From positions 1 to 28,056 of IMG/VR virus record IMGVR_UViG_3300046642_000759: 28,056 nucleotides of DNA; one strand, written 5' to 3'. The notes under the pieces are model-generated. The model saw nothing but the letters and a program-made list of their open reading frames with translations. It had not been told where the DNA came from and did not search any database. Position numbers and translations under genes: made by a program. This document shows, piece by piece, positions 5,557 through 23,658 of this stretch (position 1 is its first letter; each line of letters opens with the position of its first letter). This stretch comes from a virus.

Positions 5557-6096
5557 ATGATCGCCTGCATCTTCGACACAGAGACGACAGGTCTGATCGA
5601 CAACCACAGCATCGCGCTCGGTAAGCAGCCCGAGGTCGTGGAGTTTGCCGCGGTCCGCTTTGACTGGGACACCTACGACATAGTCCATAGGTACGACACC
5701 CTGATCAAGCCTAGCTGCGGCAGGCTGCCGGACAAGACCATCCAGACCACCGGCCTGACCGATGCAGACCTCGTTGGCGCCCCTAGCTTTAAGGCTGTCG
5801 CAGCCAATATCGCCGGCACGATCGAGCCTGCCGACATCGTCATCGCCCACAACCTGTCCTATGACATCGAGATGATCGATATAGAGTTCGAGCGCCTCGT
5901 TAGGAGGGTAGCGTGGCCAGCGATCAAGCTGTGTACCGTCGAGCAGACCATGCACGTTACGGGCAACCGGATCAACCTGAGCGGCCTGCACAAGATGATC
6001 ACTGGTAGACCCCACGAGGGCGCCCACCGGGCAATGGCCGACGTCATGGCCACCCTGACCGTCCTCCGTGGAGCCAGGGAGAGGGGGTGGCTATAA
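5557..6096 (+). CDS. DnaQ-like 3'-5' exonuclease (DEDDh)
   Basis: 179 residues; ATG at 5557, with GTGGGAGATTTGACC just before. Exo I is FDTETTG (D7, E9), Exo II is AHNLSYD (D103), and Exo III is HRAMADV (H157, D162). The histidine marks the DEDDh class of the DNA polymerase III epsilon type. The family removes mismatched 3' ends. The protein is exonuclease domain only, without the C-terminal polymerase-binding tail of cellular epsilon. It lies just upstream of the DnaE-type polymerase, so it is likely its proofreading partner (inference). The stop TAA overlaps the ATG of the next gene. Confidence 0.85.
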   Translation: MIACIFDTETTGLIDNHSIALGKQPEVVEFAAVRFDWDTYDIVHRYDTLIKPSCGRLPDKTIQTTGLTDADLVGAPSFKAVAANIAGTIEPADIVIAHNLSYDIEMIDIEFERLVRRVAWPAIKLCTVEQTMHVTGNRINLSGLHKMITGRPHEGAHRAMADVMATLTVLRGARERGWL

Positions 6097-6305
6097 TGAG
6101 GGACGAGGACGAGAGGAGGACTACTGTGAAACGGTTTGCCCTCCGCCTCATGAAGGAGGTCGTTGCGCATCAGCGCTACGGCGGCTCTCTCGAGGACGCC
6201 ATAGACGGCTCCATCCTGTTTATTTCCAACCTGCTCAAGATAGACGAGCGGGAGCTGAGGAGCTACCTCCGTGAGCAATCTAAAACTAACGACGTGGCTC
6301 CATGA
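6096..6305 (+). CDS. hypothetical small helical protein
   Basis: 69 residues; start chosen at ATG 6096 (TAATG overlap with the exonuclease stop) with AGGGAGAGGGGG eight or so bases upstream; a GTG at 6087 is an alternative. RRTTVKRFALRLMKEVVAHQ and GSLEDAIDGSILFISNLLKI are helical, no catalytic motif is seen. It lies between exonuclease and polymerase genes, so it may belong to the replication unit. Confidence 0.55.
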   Translation: MRDEDERRTTVKRFALRLMKEVVAHQRYGGSLEDAIDGSILFISNLLKIDERELRSYLREQSKTNDVAP

Positions 6306-6441
6306 CCTCCACGAGGTTACCGGCACCCTGGTGATATACTGGACCAAGGACGTACCGGAGCGGGAGCGCCAGAGAATGACGGTCATCCTCCGCGGTGTCT
6401 TGGCGGAGATGGAGGACCCTAAGAACTGGGATCAGGAGTGA
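6271..6441 (+). CDS. 56-residue hypothetical protein between exonuclease and polymerase
   Basis: GTG at 6271 preceded by GAGGAGCTACCTCC, overlapping the previous gene by 35 bases. It reads VSNLKLTTWLHDLHEVTGTL, then VIYWTKDVPERERQRMTVIL and ends DPKNWDQE. The end carries the AGGAG used as ribosome-binding site by the polymerase gene, which starts three bases later. The composition is protein-like, and the spacing favours a real gene. Function unknown. Confidence 0.5.
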   Translation: MSNLKLTTWLHDLHEVTGTLVIYWTKDVPERERQRMTVILRGVLAEMEDPKNWDQE

Positions 6442-6444
6442 ATA

Positions 6445-9400
6445 ATGATAGCGGTCAGGACGGGATACTCGTTTAAGCTCGCCGTCGGTCACGTTAAGTC
6501 GGTCGTCGATCGCCTCGTCGAGCTCGGCAAGACCGACGCCCCAATCGCCGACCGGGGCGGCACCTTCGGCTTCGTCTCGTGGACCAAGGCCTGCGCCACC
6601 GCTAACCTGCGCCCCGTCTACGGCGTAGAGCTGGCGGTCAGCGACAACTGGGGGACCAAGTCCCGCAAGGAAGCCTCGCCGGAGCAACAGCCGCGCTTCG
6701 ACTACTGGACCTTTCTGGCCAAGAGCGACCTCTCCGACCTCCACCAGCTGGTCAGGGCGGCGACTGGTAAGGCGGCCAAGGTCCCGGTACTCTCCTATGA
6801 CGAGGCGCTTGGAGCGCCGGGCGTGATCAAGGTCGCCAATGAGCAGGTCGATATCGACCTTGTCGACTTTGACATAGAGGACGTCTATATGGGCCTCACC
6901 CCCGCCACTCCGCTGGGCCTGGTCAGGGCTGCCGCGCGCAGGGGCGCCCTGTTCGTCGCAGGTAGTCGCAACGTCTACCCCTGCAGCGGAGACCTCGAGT
7001 TCTATAGAGTCATGCTGGGGAGGCACTCGGCATCGACCCAGACCTATCCGCAGCACATCCTCTCCGACGACGAGCTCGCTGCCGCACTCGCCCCTGCGGC
7101 ACTCGCCACAGATATCGCTAAAGCTATGGATCACTCCCGCGAGATAGTCTCCGGCTGTTGCGCCGTGCTCGAGAAGGGCGAGTTGCTCCACTTCAATGCC
7201 GAGAAGACCCTGCACCAGCTCTGCGAGGAGGGCGCGGCTCGGCTAGGCGTCGATCTATCCGTCCCGATGTATCGGGAAAGGATAGATCGAGAATTAGCCC
7301 TGATTGCCGAGAAGAAGTTCGACGACTACTTCCATATCATCTCCGACCTAGTGAACTGGGCCAAGCCCCGCATGGTCGTCGGACCGGCGCGGGGAAGCTC
7401 GTGCGGCAGCCTCGCCTGCTACCTGCTCGGTATCACTGCGATAGACCCCATTCCCCACGGCTTGATCTTTGAGAGGTTTATCGATATCACCCGCGCCGAC
7501 CTCCCCGATATCGACCTCGACTTCTCCAGACAGGACGAGGTGATGGCCTACGCGGAGCAGCGCTACGGCGAGAGGGTGGCCAGGCTGGCCAGCGTATCGA
7601 TCTTCCAGTCCCGCTCTGCCCTGGCCAGGGTAGGGGCCGCCCTGAAGATACCCTCCTGGCAGGTGGAGAAGGTGGCGGAGACTGCGTTCAAGCGGATGAT
7701 GGGCGACTCCCGCAAGAGTAGTACGATCTTAGATACGCTCACAGATACCGATCCTGGCAGGGTGATGCTCAAGGAGTTTCCCCAGGCAGTCATCGCCGGC
7801 AGGTTCGAGGGTCACCCCGACCACTCCTCGATCCACGCCGCGGGCCTCGTCGTTACAGATAAGCCGGTCTCTACCTACGTTGCCGTAGACCGGAGGAACG
7901 GCACTGCGATGTGCAACAAGTACGACGCAGAGTACCTCAACCTGCTCAAGATCGATGTCCTGGGTCTGACCCAGCTCTCGATCTTTGAGCGTACCCTCGA
8001 GCTGATCGGTGAGAGCCCCGTCTCCGGCTGGCTGGAGAAGATACCGCTCGACGATGCCAAGGCATTCGATCTACTCAATCGCCACAAGTACTGCGGCGTC
8101 TTCCAGTTTACCGGTGCCGCAATGCGCGGCCTGGCCAAGCAGATCACGTTCGAGTCGTTTGAAGACATCGTCGCCGCCACCGCCCTAGTCCGACCTGGCC
8201 CGCTCGCCTCCGGGGGGACCAGCCAGTGGGTGGAGAGAAGGGCGGGGCGCCAGGCAGTGACCTATCCACACCCACTGCTCGAAGAATTTTTGAGAGACAC
8301 CTACGGGATACCGGTCTATCAAGAACAAATCCTTCGGATCGGTAGAGAGCTTGGCGATCTCTCGTGGGCGGACGTGACCCAGCTACGCAAGGCCATGAGC
8401 AGGTCCCTTGGTAAAGAGTATTTCGATCAGTATGGGGACAAGTGGAAGGAGACCGCGATCAAGAAGGGGATGCCGCCTGAGGTGGCGACAGAGTTTTGGG
8501 TAGCGATGTGTCTTGACGCGAATACTAAAATTAGATTGGCGAAGAGGAGTAAGCCGCTAACTATTAAACAACTATATCGGAAGTATGAGAGTCATCAGAC
8601 GTATGAGATTAAGCGGAAGGGCTCAAGGCCTTCCCTGGTCAGCCTGTTCCCAGACGGGAGGGGTCATACGCAGAAGGCGCTCAAGTTCATCAAGTCTGGA
8701 AGAAAGGTCTGCTGGAAATATATGTTTGAAGACAAGAGCCACGTCATATGTACCCCAGATCATCGCTTCATAGTTAATGGAGGGTGGCAGAAGATAGGAG
8801 AGGCAAAGATTGGAGACGACTTCGCATTCATGGGAGAAGACTATGAGAAGCGAGGATCGCGAGCTCGGAACCATACTGGAGGTGGTAAGGGGAGTGGGAA
8901 GCGGGATACTCTAGGCCGCTACTCTGGTACGGGTCGCGTCTCCTTTGCTAAAGATTTCCGTAGAGAGATGACAGGCAAGCCCTGTGCTGACTGCGGTAAG
9001 ATTGCAACTCACATGGAGGTCCACCATAATGATTTCGTGGAAGGTAGAAAGAGACTGCGAGACGTAGCTTGGCTATGTCCTAGTTGTCATCGCACCAGGC
9101 ACTGGCAGTTTGGTAGAGGGGCAACCCCTCCGTGGGGGGTAGGCAAGGCTGTTACATCAAAGAGACTAGTTAAGAGACAAAAGATCGGATTGAGAGAAGT
9201 CTATGACATCTCAATGGAAAAACATTTTAACTTTACTCTTCAAAATGGGTTGATAACTCATAATTGTCAATACGGAGCTTGGTGCCTGAGCGGCGATACC
9301 GTATTAGTAGACCCTTATGGAAACCAGTCCCACAAGAAGCGGACCTTTACCCTGAGAGAACTCTACGAAAACGGGGGCTCATTCAATAGCCAGACCGGCA

Positions 9401-10560
9401 AGAAGCAGAACCTGCTGTGCCTCCAGGACGGGAGGATCAAGCCCCTCAGGTTGGTCGATGTCTACTATAGGGGCAGACAGAAGACCTGGCTGGTCAAGGT
9501 CGAGAGCGGAGAGAGCATTCGCGCCACCAAGGCCCACAGGTTTCTGGGCGTGGACGGCAAGTACTGGAGGCTCGATGACCTGCGACCAGGCGACGCGGTC
9601 ATCTCGATAGGATGGAGTGCAGGCAGGACCGCAGTAGCCTCCAAGATCGTCTCTATCTCCGATCCCAAGATCGAGGACACCTACGATGTAGCCATGCCAG
9701 AGCCCTATAATAACTTCGTTGCCAATAACTTCGTAGTCCACAACTCCTTCAATAAGAGTCACAGCGTCGCCTATGCCTATGTCTCGTATTGGTGCGCGTA
9801 CCTCAAGGCCCACTACCCTACGGAGTTCGCCGCCGCCACGCTCGATGCAGAGGAGAAGCCGGAGCGCCAGATCGAGCTGCTCCGCGAGCTAGCAGAGGAG
9901 GGCATCGGCTATATCCCGGTAGACCCGGAGAGGTCTACCGCCCGCTGGCAGGCCACCAGCGATGGCCGCCTGCTGGGTCCCTTGACCAACATCAAGAGCA
10001 TTGGCCCCGCCAAGATGCTGCTGATCCTCCAGGCCCGCAGGGGAGAGCGCAAGCTAACCGCCTCGCAGGCCAAGCTGCTCGAGAACCCAAAGACTGCAAT
10101 CGATAGCCTGTTTCCGATCAGGGACCGCGTCCGCACTCTCTATCCAAACGGGCTTGGAGACGCGAACATCGCCAGTCTGCCAACTCCGGTGATCGCGTGC
10201 CAGCCTGGTATCCAGGGCCCGCAGGTCATTGTGGTGGTGATCAACCGCCTGATCCCCAAGGACGAGAACGAGCCGGTCAAGGTCGCCCGCAGGGGCGGGG
10301 TCCTCCTCGATGGTCCGATCCAGGCACTCAACATGTTCGTCAGGGATGACGGAGATGAGATGTTTGCCAAGATCGGTCGCTTCAAATTCAATGAGTTGGG
10401 CAAGCCCGTCCAGGAGGAGGGCAAGCCGGGCAAGGTGATCTACGCCTTAAAGGGGGTAGTCCCTCCGTCGTTCAGAATGCTCGATGTCCGGCAGGTCAGG
10501 AAGCTCGGATATATGGAGGAAGGCTATGATGACAATAGACCAAGCGGCGATCCTGATTAG
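6445..10560 (+). CDS. dnaE: DnaE-type DNA polymerase III alpha subunit with two inteins
   Basis: 1371 codons; about 965 residues remain after removing two inteins. ATG at 6445 has CAGGAGTGAATA upstream. The N-terminal PHP-like domain (RTGYSF, PIADRGGTFGF, PVYGVEL) lacks the usual HxH metal ligands, so it is probably inactive. The palm has VVGPARGSSCGSLACYLLG, PDIDLDF (D355, D357) and KIDVLGL (D504), the three catalytic aspartates of C-family polymerases. Fingers and thumb follow (LVRPGPLASGG, YGIPVYQEQIL, FNKSHSVAYA). The C-terminal part is shorter than cellular DnaE (about 1160 residues) and has no visible clamp-binding motif. Intein 1 is at residues 689-940 and intein 2 at 947-1100, with CQYGAW between them. 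It would replicate phage DNA with the exonuclease at 5557. Confidence 0.9.
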   Translation: MIAVRTGYSFKLAVGHVKSVVDRLVELGKTDAPIADRGGTFGFVSWTKACATANLRPVYGVELAVSDNWGTKSRKEASPEQQPRFDYWTFLAKSDLSDLHQLVRAATGKAAKVPVLSYDEALGAPGVIKVANEQVDIDLVDFDIEDVYMGLTPATPLGLVRAAARRGALFVAGSRNVYPCSGDLEFYRVMLGRHSASTQTYPQHILSDDELAAALAPAALATDIAKAMDHSREIVSGCCAVLEKGELLHFNAEKTLHQLCEEGAARLGVDLSVPMYRERIDRELALIAEKKFDDYFHIISDLVNWAKPRMVVGPARGSSCGSLACYLLGITAIDPIPHGLIFERFIDITRADLPDIDLDFSRQDEVMAYAEQRYGERVARLASVSIFQSRSALARVGAALKIPSWQVEKVAETAFKRMMGDSRKSSTILDTLTDTDPGRVMLKEFPQAVIAGRFEGHPDHSSIHAAGLVVTDKPVSTYVAVDRRNGTAMCNKYDAEYLNLLKIDVLGLTQLSIFERTLELIGESPVSGWLEKIPLDDAKAFDLLNRHKYCGVFQFTGAAMRGLAKQITFESFEDIVAATALVRPGPLASGGTSQWVERRAGRQAVTYPHPLLEEFLRDTYGIPVYQEQILRIGRELGDLSWADVTQLRKAMSRSLGKEYFDQYGDKWKETAIKKGMPPEVATEFWVAMCLDANTKIRLAKRSKPLTIKQLYRKYESHQTYEIKRKGSRPSLVSLFPDGRGHTQKALKFIKSGRKVCWKYMFEDKSHVICTPDHRFIVNGGWQKIGEAKIGDDFAFMGEDYEKRGSRARNHTGGGKGSGKRDTLGRYSGTGRVSFAKDFRREMTGKPCADCGKIATHMEVHHNDFVEGRKRLRDVAWLCPSCHRTRHWQFGRGATPPWGVGKAVTSKRLVKRQKIGLREVYDISMEKHFNFTLQNGLITHNCQYGAWCLSGDTVLVDPYGNQSHKKRTFTLRELYENGGSFNSQTGKKQNLLCLQDGRIKPLRLVDVYYRGRQKTWLVKVESGESIRATKAHRFLGVDGKYWRLDDLRPGDAVISIGWSAGRTAVASKIVSISDPKIEDTYDVAMPEPYNNFVANNFVVHNSFNKSHSVAYAYVSYWCAYLKAHYPTEFAAATLDAEEKPERQIELLRELAEEGIGYIPVDPERSTARWQATSDGRLLGPLTNIKSIGPAKMLLILQARRGERKLTASQAKLLENPKTAIDSLFPIRDRVRTLYPNGLGDANIASLPTPVIACQPGIQGPQVIVVVINRLIPKDENEPVKVARRGGVLLDGPIQALNMFVRDDGDEMFAKIGRFKFNELGKPVQEEGKPGKVIYALKGVVPPSFRMLDVRQVRKLGYMEEGYDDNRPSGDPD
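8509..9264 (+). other. intein 1 in DnaE (HNH homing endonuclease type)
   Basis: 252 residues. Block A is CLDANTKIRLAK after WVAM; block B is ICTPDHRFIVNGG; block F/G is REVYDISMEKHFNFTLQ to GLITHN, followed by Cys+1. An HNH nuclease is embedded: CADCG, then MEVHHND and LCPSCHRTRH, with the paired cysteines of a zinc site. Cys1, block B T and H, penultimate His, terminal Asn and Cys+1 are all present, so splicing should work. The DNA is clearly richer in A+T than the polymerase around it (AATACTAAAATTAGATTGGC), a sign of recent arrival. The homing domain could still be active. Confidence 0.88.
9283..9744 (+). other. intein 2 in DnaE (mini-intein)
   Basis: 154 residues. Block A is CLSGDTVLV, block B is RATKAHRFLGVDG, block F is DTYDVAMPEPYNNF and block G is VVHN followed by Ser+1 (SFNKSHS). 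No endonuclease domain is present, and the length equals that of a minimal splicing domain. The insertion point, just before FNKSHS, is the one used by the split DnaE inteins of cyanobacteria, but here the +1 residue is Ser rather than Cys. Base composition matches the host gene, so it may be an older resident. All splice residues are intact. Confidence 0.88.
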
Positions 10561-15264: not shown

Positions 15265-15285
15265 AAAAGGCCAAGGAGGCCTTTT
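15265..15285. terminator. bidirectional terminator that also holds the next ribosome-binding site
   Basis: AAAAGGCC (15265-15272), loop AAGGA, GGCCTTTT (15278-15285): a perfect 8-bp stem with A and U tracts. AAGGAGG (15273-15279), the ribosome-binding site of the gene at 15290, occupies loop and stem. It therefore ends upstream transcription and may also mask translation start of the exported protein. Confidence 0.7.
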
Positions 15286-15289
15286 CCTG

Positions 15290-15934
15290 ATGAAGAAACT
15301 TTTGCTCATGGCTACAGTGGCAGTCCTGGCATTCGCCAGTCCAGCTGCGGCTGACGTCATCATCGACAACCACCTCAGCGGTACCGGCGACAACGTGGTG
15401 TTCGACAGCTTCAACAGTGTCACCAATGTTGCAGTCGGCAGCTTTAACGGGCAGCATCAAGGGCTCGTTGACTTCAGTTGCTTGGGCGGCTGCCTCGGTT
15501 TCACTGGAGCGGCGAACGGCAACGACATCAAGATCGCCGACACCAACGACCTGAAAGTTCAGGTCTTCGACACGACCGGCCTTCACGTGTTGCAGACGCA
15601 AACCGATGTCTTTTCTTTGAAGGGCAGCGGAGATGCGACTGCGTTCGTGATCGCTGACGAAGCGAACGGCACCCAGAAGCTGTTCACGTTCGCTCTCGGT
15701 ACGCTAAGTCTGTCGTCACAGTCCGGTTTCACCCTGAGCGCAATCAACGGCGAAACAATCGACTCGTTCAGGGTCGCCACAACCGGCAACCTCACGGACT
15801 TCGAGCACTACCGGATCGACGTCGCAGCAGCGGCGGTTCCTGGCCCGGTCGTGGGTGCGGGACTGCCGGGGCTGATTACTGCGTGTCTCGGCCTCTGGGG
15901 ATTGCAGCGTCGGCGACGTACACTGCAAGCGTAG
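15290..15934 (+). CDS. exported protein with PEP-CTERM-like sorting tail (1)
   Basis: 214 residues. A signal peptide MKKLLLMATVAVLAFASPAA precedes an A-D cleavage site. The mature part is beta-rich, low in lysine, with C64 and C68 (FSCLGGCLGF) and many D/N/T residues. The C-terminus has VPGP (183-186), GAGLPGLITACLGLWGLQ as a membrane segment and RRRR, the tripartite exosortase sorting signal seen in Bradyrhizobium-type proteins. In that family the tail is cut by an exosortase after transport to the outer surface; the host must supply exosortase. Likely a moron of host origin. The 3-residue shift after the signal fits export; function of the mature part is unknown. Confidence 0.7.
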   Translation: MKKLLLMATVAVLAFASPAAADVIIDNHLSGTGDNVVFDSFNSVTNVAVGSFNGQHQGLVDFSCLGGCLGFTGAANGNDIKIADTNDLKVQVFDTTGLHVLQTQTDVFSLKGSGDATAFVIADEANGTQKLFTFALGTLSLSSQSGFTLSAINGETIDSFRVATTGNLTDFEHYRIDVAAAAVPGPVVGAGLPGLITACLGLWGLQRRRRTLQA

Positions 15935-16056
15935 TATCGTTTTGACCCTGCCCTAAGTCGGGACCGGACGGGAGGTTAGACTAAGAGAGGGCACGACCAT
16001 TGACCGTTCCGGCGGTAGGTACGGCCCTCGCCTTCACATACAGGAGTGATCAAGAT

Positions 16057-16728
16057 ATGAGACGGCTACTTCTAGCCTCTGCGGCCGTGCTGGCGCTATC
16101 CGCACCAGCTCTAGCCGATACCTACCAGATGGACAGCTTCACTGTGAATGCGGGGGAGCAGAATGTCCACATAACCTCGCCGATCGACCTGACCGTTCAG
16201 GCTGGAGATATCACGCTGCATTCAGCTACGCAGGGTGACCTGCTTGTCTGGTGCCTCGATCTGACTGACCTATTGTTCCAGCCATACAAATTCAACGAGA
16301 CGGTCTATGGCGGGGGCAACCTTCCGGGTCTTCCGGCCGGTGGCCTGAGCGCTGTGCAAATCCGTGAGATCGCCTCACTGATGAAATTTGGCTTGACGGT
16401 CAACCCCGACGCGGACAATGACGCGGCGGTACAACTCGCGATCTGGAAAACGGAGTATGGCAACGCCTTTACCGACACTGGCTTGTCTGCGTCGCTTTCG
16501 GCCAAGGTGGCACTCCTACTGCTCGATGCGGCCAACGGAGGCCTGATCGACTGTCCGACCTGTACCCTCACCGTACTGTCGGACGCCGTGAGTGCGCCCA
16601 ATCAGGCACTTGGCTTTGCGTCAGTACCAGTTCCTGCCCCAATCGTTGGGGCGGGTCTACCTGGGCTGATCGCAGGATGCCTCGGTCTCTGGGGTCTCCA
16701 GAAGCGTCGGCGTAGCAAGCTCGCATAA
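16057..16728 (+). CDS. exported protein with PEP-CTERM-like tail and Cys-Gln pair (2)
   Basis: 223 residues; the frame is open from 16000, but ATG 16057 has AGGAG 10 bases upstream and opens the signal peptide MRRLLLASAAVLALSAPALA. VWCLDL (C66) and AAVQLAIWKTEYG (Q126) resemble the Cys and Gln of thioester-forming TQxA/TED domains. Further cysteines are C166 and C169. The tail VPVPAPIVGAGLPGLIAGCL and KRRR matches that of the gene at 15290, so both share one sorting system. Together they look like host-derived surface proteins. Whether a thioester forms is inferred only. Confidence 0.7.
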   Translation: MRRLLLASAAVLALSAPALADTYQMDSFTVNAGEQNVHITSPIDLTVQAGDITLHSATQGDLLVWCLDLTDLLFQPYKFNETVYGGGNLPGLPAGGLSAVQIREIASLMKFGLTVNPDADNDAAVQLAIWKTEYGNAFTDTGLSASLSAKVALLLLDAANGGLIDCPTCTLTVLSDAVSAPNQALGFASVPVPAPIVGAGLPGLIAGCLGLWGLQKRRRSKLA

Positions 16729-16738
16729 AGCTAACTTG

Positions 16739-16773
16739 CCCTGGCGGGGGCTTGCTCCTGCCGGGGTCTTTTC
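16739..16773 (+). terminator. strong intrinsic terminator
   Basis: CCCTGGCGGG (16739-16748), loop GGCTTGCT, CCTGCCGGGG (16757-16766), then TCTTTTC. All ten positions pair, two of them G-U. It closes the pair of exported-protein genes. Confidence 0.75.
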
Positions 16774-22200: not shown

Positions 22201-23658
22201 ATGTACGAGCCAAAGTGGCCATGCCATCCCCACCAGTTGATCGGGGAGAGGAAGATGAGAGGGAGAAGGGCATTCGCCCTGCTGATGGCCATGCGGACCG
22301 GCAAGACCAAAACGGCAATAGATGACTTCGGGGAAATGGAGTCGGCCGGAGAGGTAAGGGACTTGCTGGTTTTGGCTCCCGCCGGGGTCTACCGGACCTG
22401 GCACGATGAGTTCGATAAGCACGCGGGTGCGGACCTGCTGGACAGGGCCCGCATCCATACCTGGGAGACCGGAGGCGGCGCGGGCCATGCCAGGGCGGCC
22501 ACCAGGTTTATGGCCGAGCGCGATGACAGGGTGCCTCGGATTATGCTCATGAATATCGAGGCTCTCTCCTACAAGACCGCGGGGGCCAGGGAGCTGGCGG
22601 CAGAGTTCGTCGGCCACAGGCACGCAGAGGTCATCGTAGACGAGAGCACCACCATCAAGAGTCACGCTACGAACCGAACTAAGTTCGTTATAAGAGCACT
22701 GCGCGACGCAGGTAGCTATAGGAGGATACTGTGCGGCCTGCCGACTCCGCAGAGCCCGCTCGACCTGTTCGGCCAGTTCACCTTCCTCGACGAGAACATC
22801 CTCGGTTACGCGTTTACCGAGTTCACCCTATTCCGGGCGCGCTATGCCAAGGTCGTAATGACCCAGCTCCCGGGCAGGAAGTTTCTCGTACCACTGATCA
22901 GGGGCTTCCAGAATACCGATGAGCTGTACGCCAAGATCGAGCCCCACTCGTACCGCATCAGGCTGGAGGACGTCAAGGACCTCCCGGTCACCTACCAGGT
23001 CAGGCACGTCGAGCTGACCCCAGAGCAGAAGAAGGCCTACGACAGTCTGAAGAAGAACGCCATCGCCGAGCTGGAGGGAGGCAGGCTGGTGACGGCCCAG
23101 TTGGTTATCGTCCAGATGCTCAGGCTCCACCAGATCCTGTGCGGCTTCGTCAAGGACTCGGAGGGGGTAGTCAGGGAGCTGCCGGAGAAGCGCACGGCAG
23201 CCTTGCTCGATCTATTCGAGGAGTATGACGGCAAGGCGATCGTGTGGTGCTCCTACGACCTCTCCATCAGGAGAGTGGCGGCCGCGCTCAAGGACAAGTA
23301 CGGAGAGGGCTCCGTCGCCCTGTTCTGGGGCGGCAACATCAGGGAGAGGGAGGGAGAGGACAAGCGCTTCAAGGAGGACCCCAAGTGCAGGTTCATGGTC
23401 GCCACACCGGGGGCAGGCGGGAGGGGGAGGCGGTGGGACGTGGCCAACCTGGTCGTCTACTATAGCAGCACCAACAACCTAGAGCACCGAGACCAGAGCG
23501 AGGAGAGGGCCAAGGACATGACCAAGACCGACAGCACGGCCTACGTCGATTTGATCGTGCCTGGTTCTATTGACGAGAAGTTCATCCACGCGCTGCGGCG
23601 CAAGATCGACCTCGCCAGTGTGATCACCGGCGACGCCTACAGGGAGTGGCTGGTATGA
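22201..23658 (+). CDS. SNF2-type DEAD-like helicase/ATPase
   Basis: 485 residues; ATG 22201 with GAGGACGC upstream. Walker A-like AMRTGKTKT (30-38), motif Ia LVLAPAGVYRTW (56-67), motif II VDEST (146-150, DEST instead of DEAH), motif III LCGLPTPQSP (177-186), then helicase-C parts KAIVWCSYDLSIRRVA and QSEERAKDM with arginine residues for ATP sensing. This is the common phage SNF2 helicase, length normal for the family. It would move DNA-bound proteins or help replication. It lies downstream of a winged-helix gene. Confidence 0.85.
   Translation: MYEPKWPCHPHQLIGERKMRGRRAFALLMAMRTGKTKTAIDDFGEMESAGEVRDLLVLAPAGVYRTWHDEFDKHAGADLLDRARIHTWETGGGAGHARAATRFMAERDDRVPRIMLMNIEALSYKTAGARELAAEFVGHRHAEVIVDESTTIKSHATNRTKFVIRALRDAGSYRRILCGLPTPQSPLDLFGQFTFLDENILGYAFTEFTLFRARYAKVVMTQLPGRKFLVPLIRGFQNTDELYAKIEPHSYRIRLEDVKDLPVTYQVRHVELTPEQKKAYDSLKKNAIAELEGGRLVTAQLVIVQMLRLHQILCGFVKDSEGVVRELPEKRTAALLDLFEEYDGKAIVWCSYDLSIRRVAAALKDKYGEGSVALFWGGNIREREGEDKRFKEDPKCRFMVATPGAGGRGRRWDVANLVVYYSSTNNLEHRDQSEERAKDMTKTDSTAYVDLIVPGSIDEKFIHALRRKIDLASVITGDAYREWLV

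Follow-up and report, generated by a model that had tools for sequence, protein, structure and literature searches.

We report that a soil phage carries two adjacent genes, P0001 and P0002, whose products are predicted to be secreted and then sorted to the surface of the infected cell by an exosortase-type enzyme of the host, a model to which we assign a probability of roughly 0.7. The window, that is, the whole stretch of DNA analysed, was the 28,056-base IMG/VR virus record IMGVR_UViG_3300046642_000759 (positions 1 to 28,056). Exosortase systems are known from bacteria, in which they place proteins on the surface and in the exopolysaccharide. Searching the open-access literature for PEP-CTERM or exosortase together with phage, prophage or viral contigs, and for GAGLPGL, we found no report of phage-borne exosortase substrates. 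Single cases had been glimpsed before, and were not interpreted, in a virome study that mentioned a TIGR03118 family, bearing a putative exosortase-interaction domain, as one of the cellular genes transferred horizontally to hot-spring viruses (PMC11003980). The P0001/P0002 system is a real and, it appears, so far undescribed variant of the known sorting systems.

A gene pair with a common C-terminal tail

The pair and the signals around it comprise the following features.

15265..15285, + strand: 8-pair hairpin (fold z about -1), overlapping the AAGGAGG ribosome-binding site of P0001
15290..15934, + strand: P0001, 214 aa, with a signal peptide, a conserved phage-specific beta-sandwich domain and a C-terminal GAGLPGL-type sorting tail
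15836..15931, + strand: sorting tail of P0001, VPGPVVGAGLPGLITACLGLWGLQRRRRTLQA, with motif, hydrophobic helix and Arg cluster; a tail class also present on host proteins
16057..16728, + strand: P0002, 223 aa, with a signal peptide, a body with relatives among phage proteins and weak ones among host PEP-CTERM proteins, and the tail class of P0001
16630..16725, + strand: sorting tail of P0002, VPAPIVGAGLPGLIAGCLGLWGLQKRRRSKLA
16738..16767, + strand: intrinsic terminator with a 13-pair stem, a 4-nt loop and the T-rich tail CTTTTCTT (z -4.4 against shuffles)

Both open reading frames were present as described in the initial annotation, which had noted a pair of signal-peptide proteins with a common tail. 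The signal peptides, read from the sequence, are MKKLLLMATVAVLAFASPAAAD in P0001 and MRRLLLASAAVLALSAPALAD in P0002. For P0002, the mechanical open reading frame opens at TTG 16000, but an AGGAG site precedes the ATG at 16057, with which the signal peptide begins. Each C-terminus has three parts (motif, transmembrane helix and basic cluster), and the tail common to the two proteins reads VP(G/A)P-x-x-GAGLPGL followed by a hydrophobic helix and an Arg/Lys cluster, with the helix at 192-213 in the P0001 model. Among the spellings first given for these tails, VPGP, VPVPAP and GAGLPGLI were correct, and so was RRRR apart from the P0002 tail, which has KRRR. The description of the proteins as PEP-CTERM-like did not carry over to curated models, as neither P0001 nor P0002 matched any NCBIfam model. 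The same pair recurred in two other contigs with 100% protein identity.

The pair had also been described as bracketed by terminators. The downstream structure (16738-16767) bore this out, whereas the one at 15265 did not and gave no hit in the terminator scan of the window. Because a T run lies inside the stem of the 15265-15285 hairpin and the Shine-Dalgarno sequence of P0001 occupies its loop and 3' arm, this hairpin is better read as part of the ribosome-binding site than as a terminator, and it could mask that site and control translation of P0001. An Rfam search of the window gave no match.

Tail classes in the phage protein family

The find is not a one-off, as the P0001 body family is widespread in phages and occurs with three tail types. 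Relatives of P0001 were found in at least 79 IMG/VR viral loci. The body was absent from 385 alphaproteobacterial genomes in a profile search, in which tails alone matched, and from 84,980 species genomes searched with peptide patterns that reach close relatives only. No INPHARED phage record held a member of the family, and searches by protein, tail or DNA returned no relative from a cultured phage. The tail itself was followed with a DNA pattern, which matched 14 stretches in the 84,980 species genomes and at least 119 in IMG/VR. Tails of the GAGLPGL type were spread over 18 body families in viral contigs, and the phage analysed here has two tailed proteins; the GAGLPGL tail is not a product of chance. 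On one further viral contig, three different GAGLPGL-tailed proteins follow one another (L031:4925-7608).

To place the tails on the history of the body, a tree of 61 P0001 rows was built without the tail. It contained 40 rows with GAGLPGL, 13 with PEPxxW and 8 with xPLPA, and the tail class needed 11 changes along it, where the minimum possible was 2 and shuffled classes gave a mean of 19.4. One relative (L024), with a body 77% identical to that of P0001, nevertheless ends in the PEPxxW-class tail VPETATWAMM. Curated models recognised part of this diversity, with 12 of 58 P0001 homologs matching the PEPxxWA-CTERM model NF035944 or TIGR02595 and three matching VPLPA-CTERM TIGR03370.

Many contigs encode a second, unrelated tailed protein near the P0001 relative. 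Of 16 such pairs, 14 agreed in tail class (permutation p=1e-5), and both discordant cases were antisense open reading frames. Pairs that set GAGLPGL against xPLPA traced to spurious antisense or structural-gene frames and were filtered by objective criteria, under which the two antisense cases stayed among the 16. In one contig (L032), the relatives of P0001 and P0002 both belong to the xPLPA class. Concordance within a phage combined with swapping between phages is what would be expected if the tail must fit an enzyme of the host, and the swapping among related phages points to use of the infected host's sorting machinery as their route to its surface. We consider it rather probable that a phage-specific family of surface proteins is common to phages of Alphaproteobacteria, which replace nothing but its tail to suit whichever sorting enzyme their present host has, among them an unnamed exosortase with its own GAGLPGL class, and that they thereby rebuild the surface of the infected cell by way of bacterial sorting.

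A plain C-anchored membrane protein would also show a signal peptide, a C-terminal helix and a basic cluster, and some tail-bearing genomes had no detected enzyme, as given below. The tail might then be an uncleaved anchor that keeps the proteins in the inner membrane facing the periplasm, for example for superinfection exclusion at the step of DNA entry. However, such an anchor has no need of the conserved VPxPxxGAGLPGL motif, and it would neither alternate among three known sorting-motif classes nor match the class of an unrelated neighbour. We therefore regard simple anchoring as unlikely, though it is the strongest competitor of sorting by a host enzyme.

Host tails and a candidate sorting enzyme

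The tails had been likened to host sorting signals of Bradyrhizobium type, and their host character was supported: the GAGLPGL tail occurs on host signal-peptide proteins, and the PEPxxW and some xPLPA tails of the homologs match sorting-signal models. Two MAGs, one of Bradyrhizobium (G001) and one alphaproteobacterial (G003), each carried the tail on several signal-peptide proteins, with nine matches apiece, and the tail was found in few other genomes; a match in G086 was a degenerate remnant.

Use of a host exosortase, as originally suggested, received a divided answer. Classical exosortase (PF09721) was found in none of the five genomes that carry the GAGLPGL tail, and the three of 150 genomes of the bacterial family that encode it lacked the tail under the strict pattern. 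PF09721 was ruled out as the enzyme for this tail because it is missing from the tail-bearing genomes. In contrast, both Bradyrhizobium MAGs G001 and G002 encode a multi-pass protein that scored above the TIGR04178 cut-off and fell into no named NCBIfam subfamily, so that a superfamily candidate does exist in plausible hosts, against the concern in the initial annotation that no host of the phage might have an exosortase.

L241:215-1093 (G001:C491): candidate enzyme, TIGR04178 above cut-off
L242:7363-8235 (G002:C60), minus strand: candidate enzyme, TIGR04178 above cut-off

Three residues of the candidate, C200, R246 and H261, were invariant across 10 relatives, and Cys/Arg/His is the triad described for exosortase (PMC1569441). 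Other TIGR04178 matches, in G086, G004 and G001:C125, were not exosortases or lay below the cut-off. Relatives of the candidate were detected in 9 of 150 genomes of the bacterial family and, at the level of the order, in 17 of 398. In 5 of 26 loci, compared with 0 of 520 shuffles, the enzyme gene adjoined one for a small signal-peptide protein whose tail resembles GAGLPGL (for example APGPVAGASLP...RRRR and VPGPIAGAGLP...RRRK). Haft and colleagues identified sorting pairs by such one-to-one neighbours (PMC3237569). In G001, the candidate lies on the same contig as two GAGLPGL-tailed proteins. Enzyme and tail occurred together in G001, G002, G011 and G026; no candidate enzyme was found in the fragmented, tail-bearing MAGs G003-G005, nor in G009 and G125, which have similar tails.

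Because its relatives often adjoin a small protein with a GAGLPGL-like tail, we propose this unnamed protein of the exosortase/archaeosortase superfamily (TIGR04178) from Bradyrhizobium-like Alphaproteobacteria as the likely sorting enzyme for the GAGLPGL tail. The proposed pairing draws on gene neighbourhood and on co-presence in a few genomes. No phage-encoded exosortase was found in 31 viral records.

Beside more distant relatives of the enzyme lie small proteins with another tail, GPLPxLGxTLLGQ...WRRRR, which perhaps form a separate pair.

L297:2726-3118: GPLPxLGxTLLGQ-tailed protein
L298:2827-3069: GPLPxLGxTLLGQ-tailed protein
L299:374-682, minus strand: GPLPxLGxTLLGQ-tailed protein
L300:618-926, minus strand: GPLPxLGxTLLGQ-tailed protein

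Cutting of the tail by a different membrane protease, for example of rhomboid or CPBP type, was judged somewhat less probable still than simple anchoring. A rhomboid-like protease would fit the small-residue motif GAG/PG, G003-G005 have the tail with no exosortase relative detected, and rhombosortase and myxosortase are other enzymes capable of such work (PMC3237569, PMC11980579). Against this reading stand the five loci in which relatives of the enzyme adjoin small proteins with GAGLPGL-like tails, and the single G001 contig that holds both enzyme and tails.

Sorting to the surface by a host exosortase-type enzyme would proceed by export, arrest, cleavage and release, steps that we propose because they are known from the PEP-CTERM system. 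The signal peptide would take P0001 and P0002 through the inner membrane, and the tail (VPxPxxGAGLPGL, transmembrane helix and basic cluster) would hold them there until the transpeptidase cleaves at the motif and hands them on to the cell surface or the exopolysaccharide.

Phage origin, possible role and relation to known systems

The window contains PHROG-type genes for an exonuclease, a DNA polymerase III alpha subunit, a polynucleotide-kinase-like protein and a helicase, which lie as follows around the pair.

5557..10560, + strand: replication genes upstream of P0001/P0002, exonuclease (phrog_192) and DNA polymerase III alpha (phrog_405) with two inteins
22201..23658, + strand: phage helicase downstream of P0001/P0002 (phrog_62)

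The phrog_62 helicase family was also found near a P0001 homolog in 20 contigs. The neighbours of the P0001 family otherwise include polymerases, primases, recombination genes, endolysins, tail fibres, one terminase and, in a few contigs, an integrase; apart from the family itself, these contigs have no gene in common. The DNA polymerase III alpha gene itself (6445-10560, + strand) contains two tandem inteins, at 8509-9264 (252 aa, with an HNH endonuclease) and at 9283-9744 (small, 154 aa), separated by just six extein residues (CQYGAW) immediately before the SFNKSHSVAY motif.

Comparison of P0001 with its relatives gave dN/dS of 0.13-0.22, which indicated purifying selection. An AlphaFold2 model of P0001 showed a signal helix, a beta-sandwich (blocks mostly with pLDDT >90), a loose or flexible linker where the motif lies, and a helix at the C-terminus. 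A PDB sequence search gave no match, and Foldseek returned weak matches, with TM-scores mostly <0.5, to carbohydrate-binding modules, FlaA1 and phage tail domains, which provide a weak structural hint that P0001 may bind glycans. Relatives of P0002 occurred in several viral contigs, and weak relatives were found among host proteins with classical PEP-CTERM tails (TPEPST...ARRR). P0002 may derive from a family of host surface proteins.

Proteins of the virion come together in the cytoplasm and usually have no signal peptide. Since P0001 and P0002 do have signal peptides, and since the P0001 gene has no fixed place in a structural module, it is very improbable that they are exported virion parts decorating the particle, despite the weak similarity of the beta-sandwich to phage tail and carbohydrate-binding domains. 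The alternative that the window is a piece of host DNA or a chimera, carrying ordinary bacterial surface-protein genes, a concern of the initial annotation to which the host-like tails and the weak host relatives of P0002 lend a little weight, is hardly credible given phage genes on both sides of the pair, a G+C content of 58.7% for the pair against 58.8% for the contig, the same pair in other viral contigs and a P0001 body family missing from the 385 genomes; the contig is a phage.

Sorted by the host enzyme, the proteins would most likely coat or modify the glycan surface of the infected cell rather than form part of the virion. Their purpose may be superinfection exclusion, or to prevent adsorption of progeny to debris, in the manner of T5 Llp (PMC9586334). 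The roles in adhesion, biofilm or phage adsorption put forward in the initial annotation are hypothetical. If tails are indeed exchanged to suit the host, a tail can be read as a pointer to the bacterium that an uncultured phage infects, natural swaps reveal what portion of the tail is recognised by each enzyme, and P0001 and P0002 offer a handle on how phages alter the surface of infected soil bacteria. In addition, a tail class without a curated model now has a candidate sorting enzyme.

The closest known system is that of PEP-CTERM and the exosortase EpsH (Haft 2006, PMC1569441; TIGR02595, PF09721), which likewise combines a signal peptide with motif, transmembrane helix and basic cluster, and in which several unrelated proteins share the tail; the 12 of 58 phage homologs above match its models. 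It differs in that the P0001 and P0002 tails have no near-invariant Pro-Glu-Pro and no model match, that the carriers here are phages, and that the genomes with the GAGLPGL tail have no PF09721. VPLPA-CTERM/XrtD (TIGR03370, TIGR04152) is represented by the xPLPA tails of some P0001 family members, three of which match TIGR03370, but these are a minority of the family and not the tail of P0001 or P0002. In GlyGly-CTERM/rhombosortase (PMC3237569), some genomes have the gene for one small tailed substrate beside that of the enzyme, the same layout as for our candidate, which however belongs to the exosortase superfamily, without a named NCBIfam subfamily, and is not a rhomboid protein. T5 Llp (PMC9586334) is also a phage product exported to the envelope of the infected cell, yet Llp, a lipoprotein, blocks a known receptor, whereas P0001 and P0002 are predicted to take an exosortase-type tail route.
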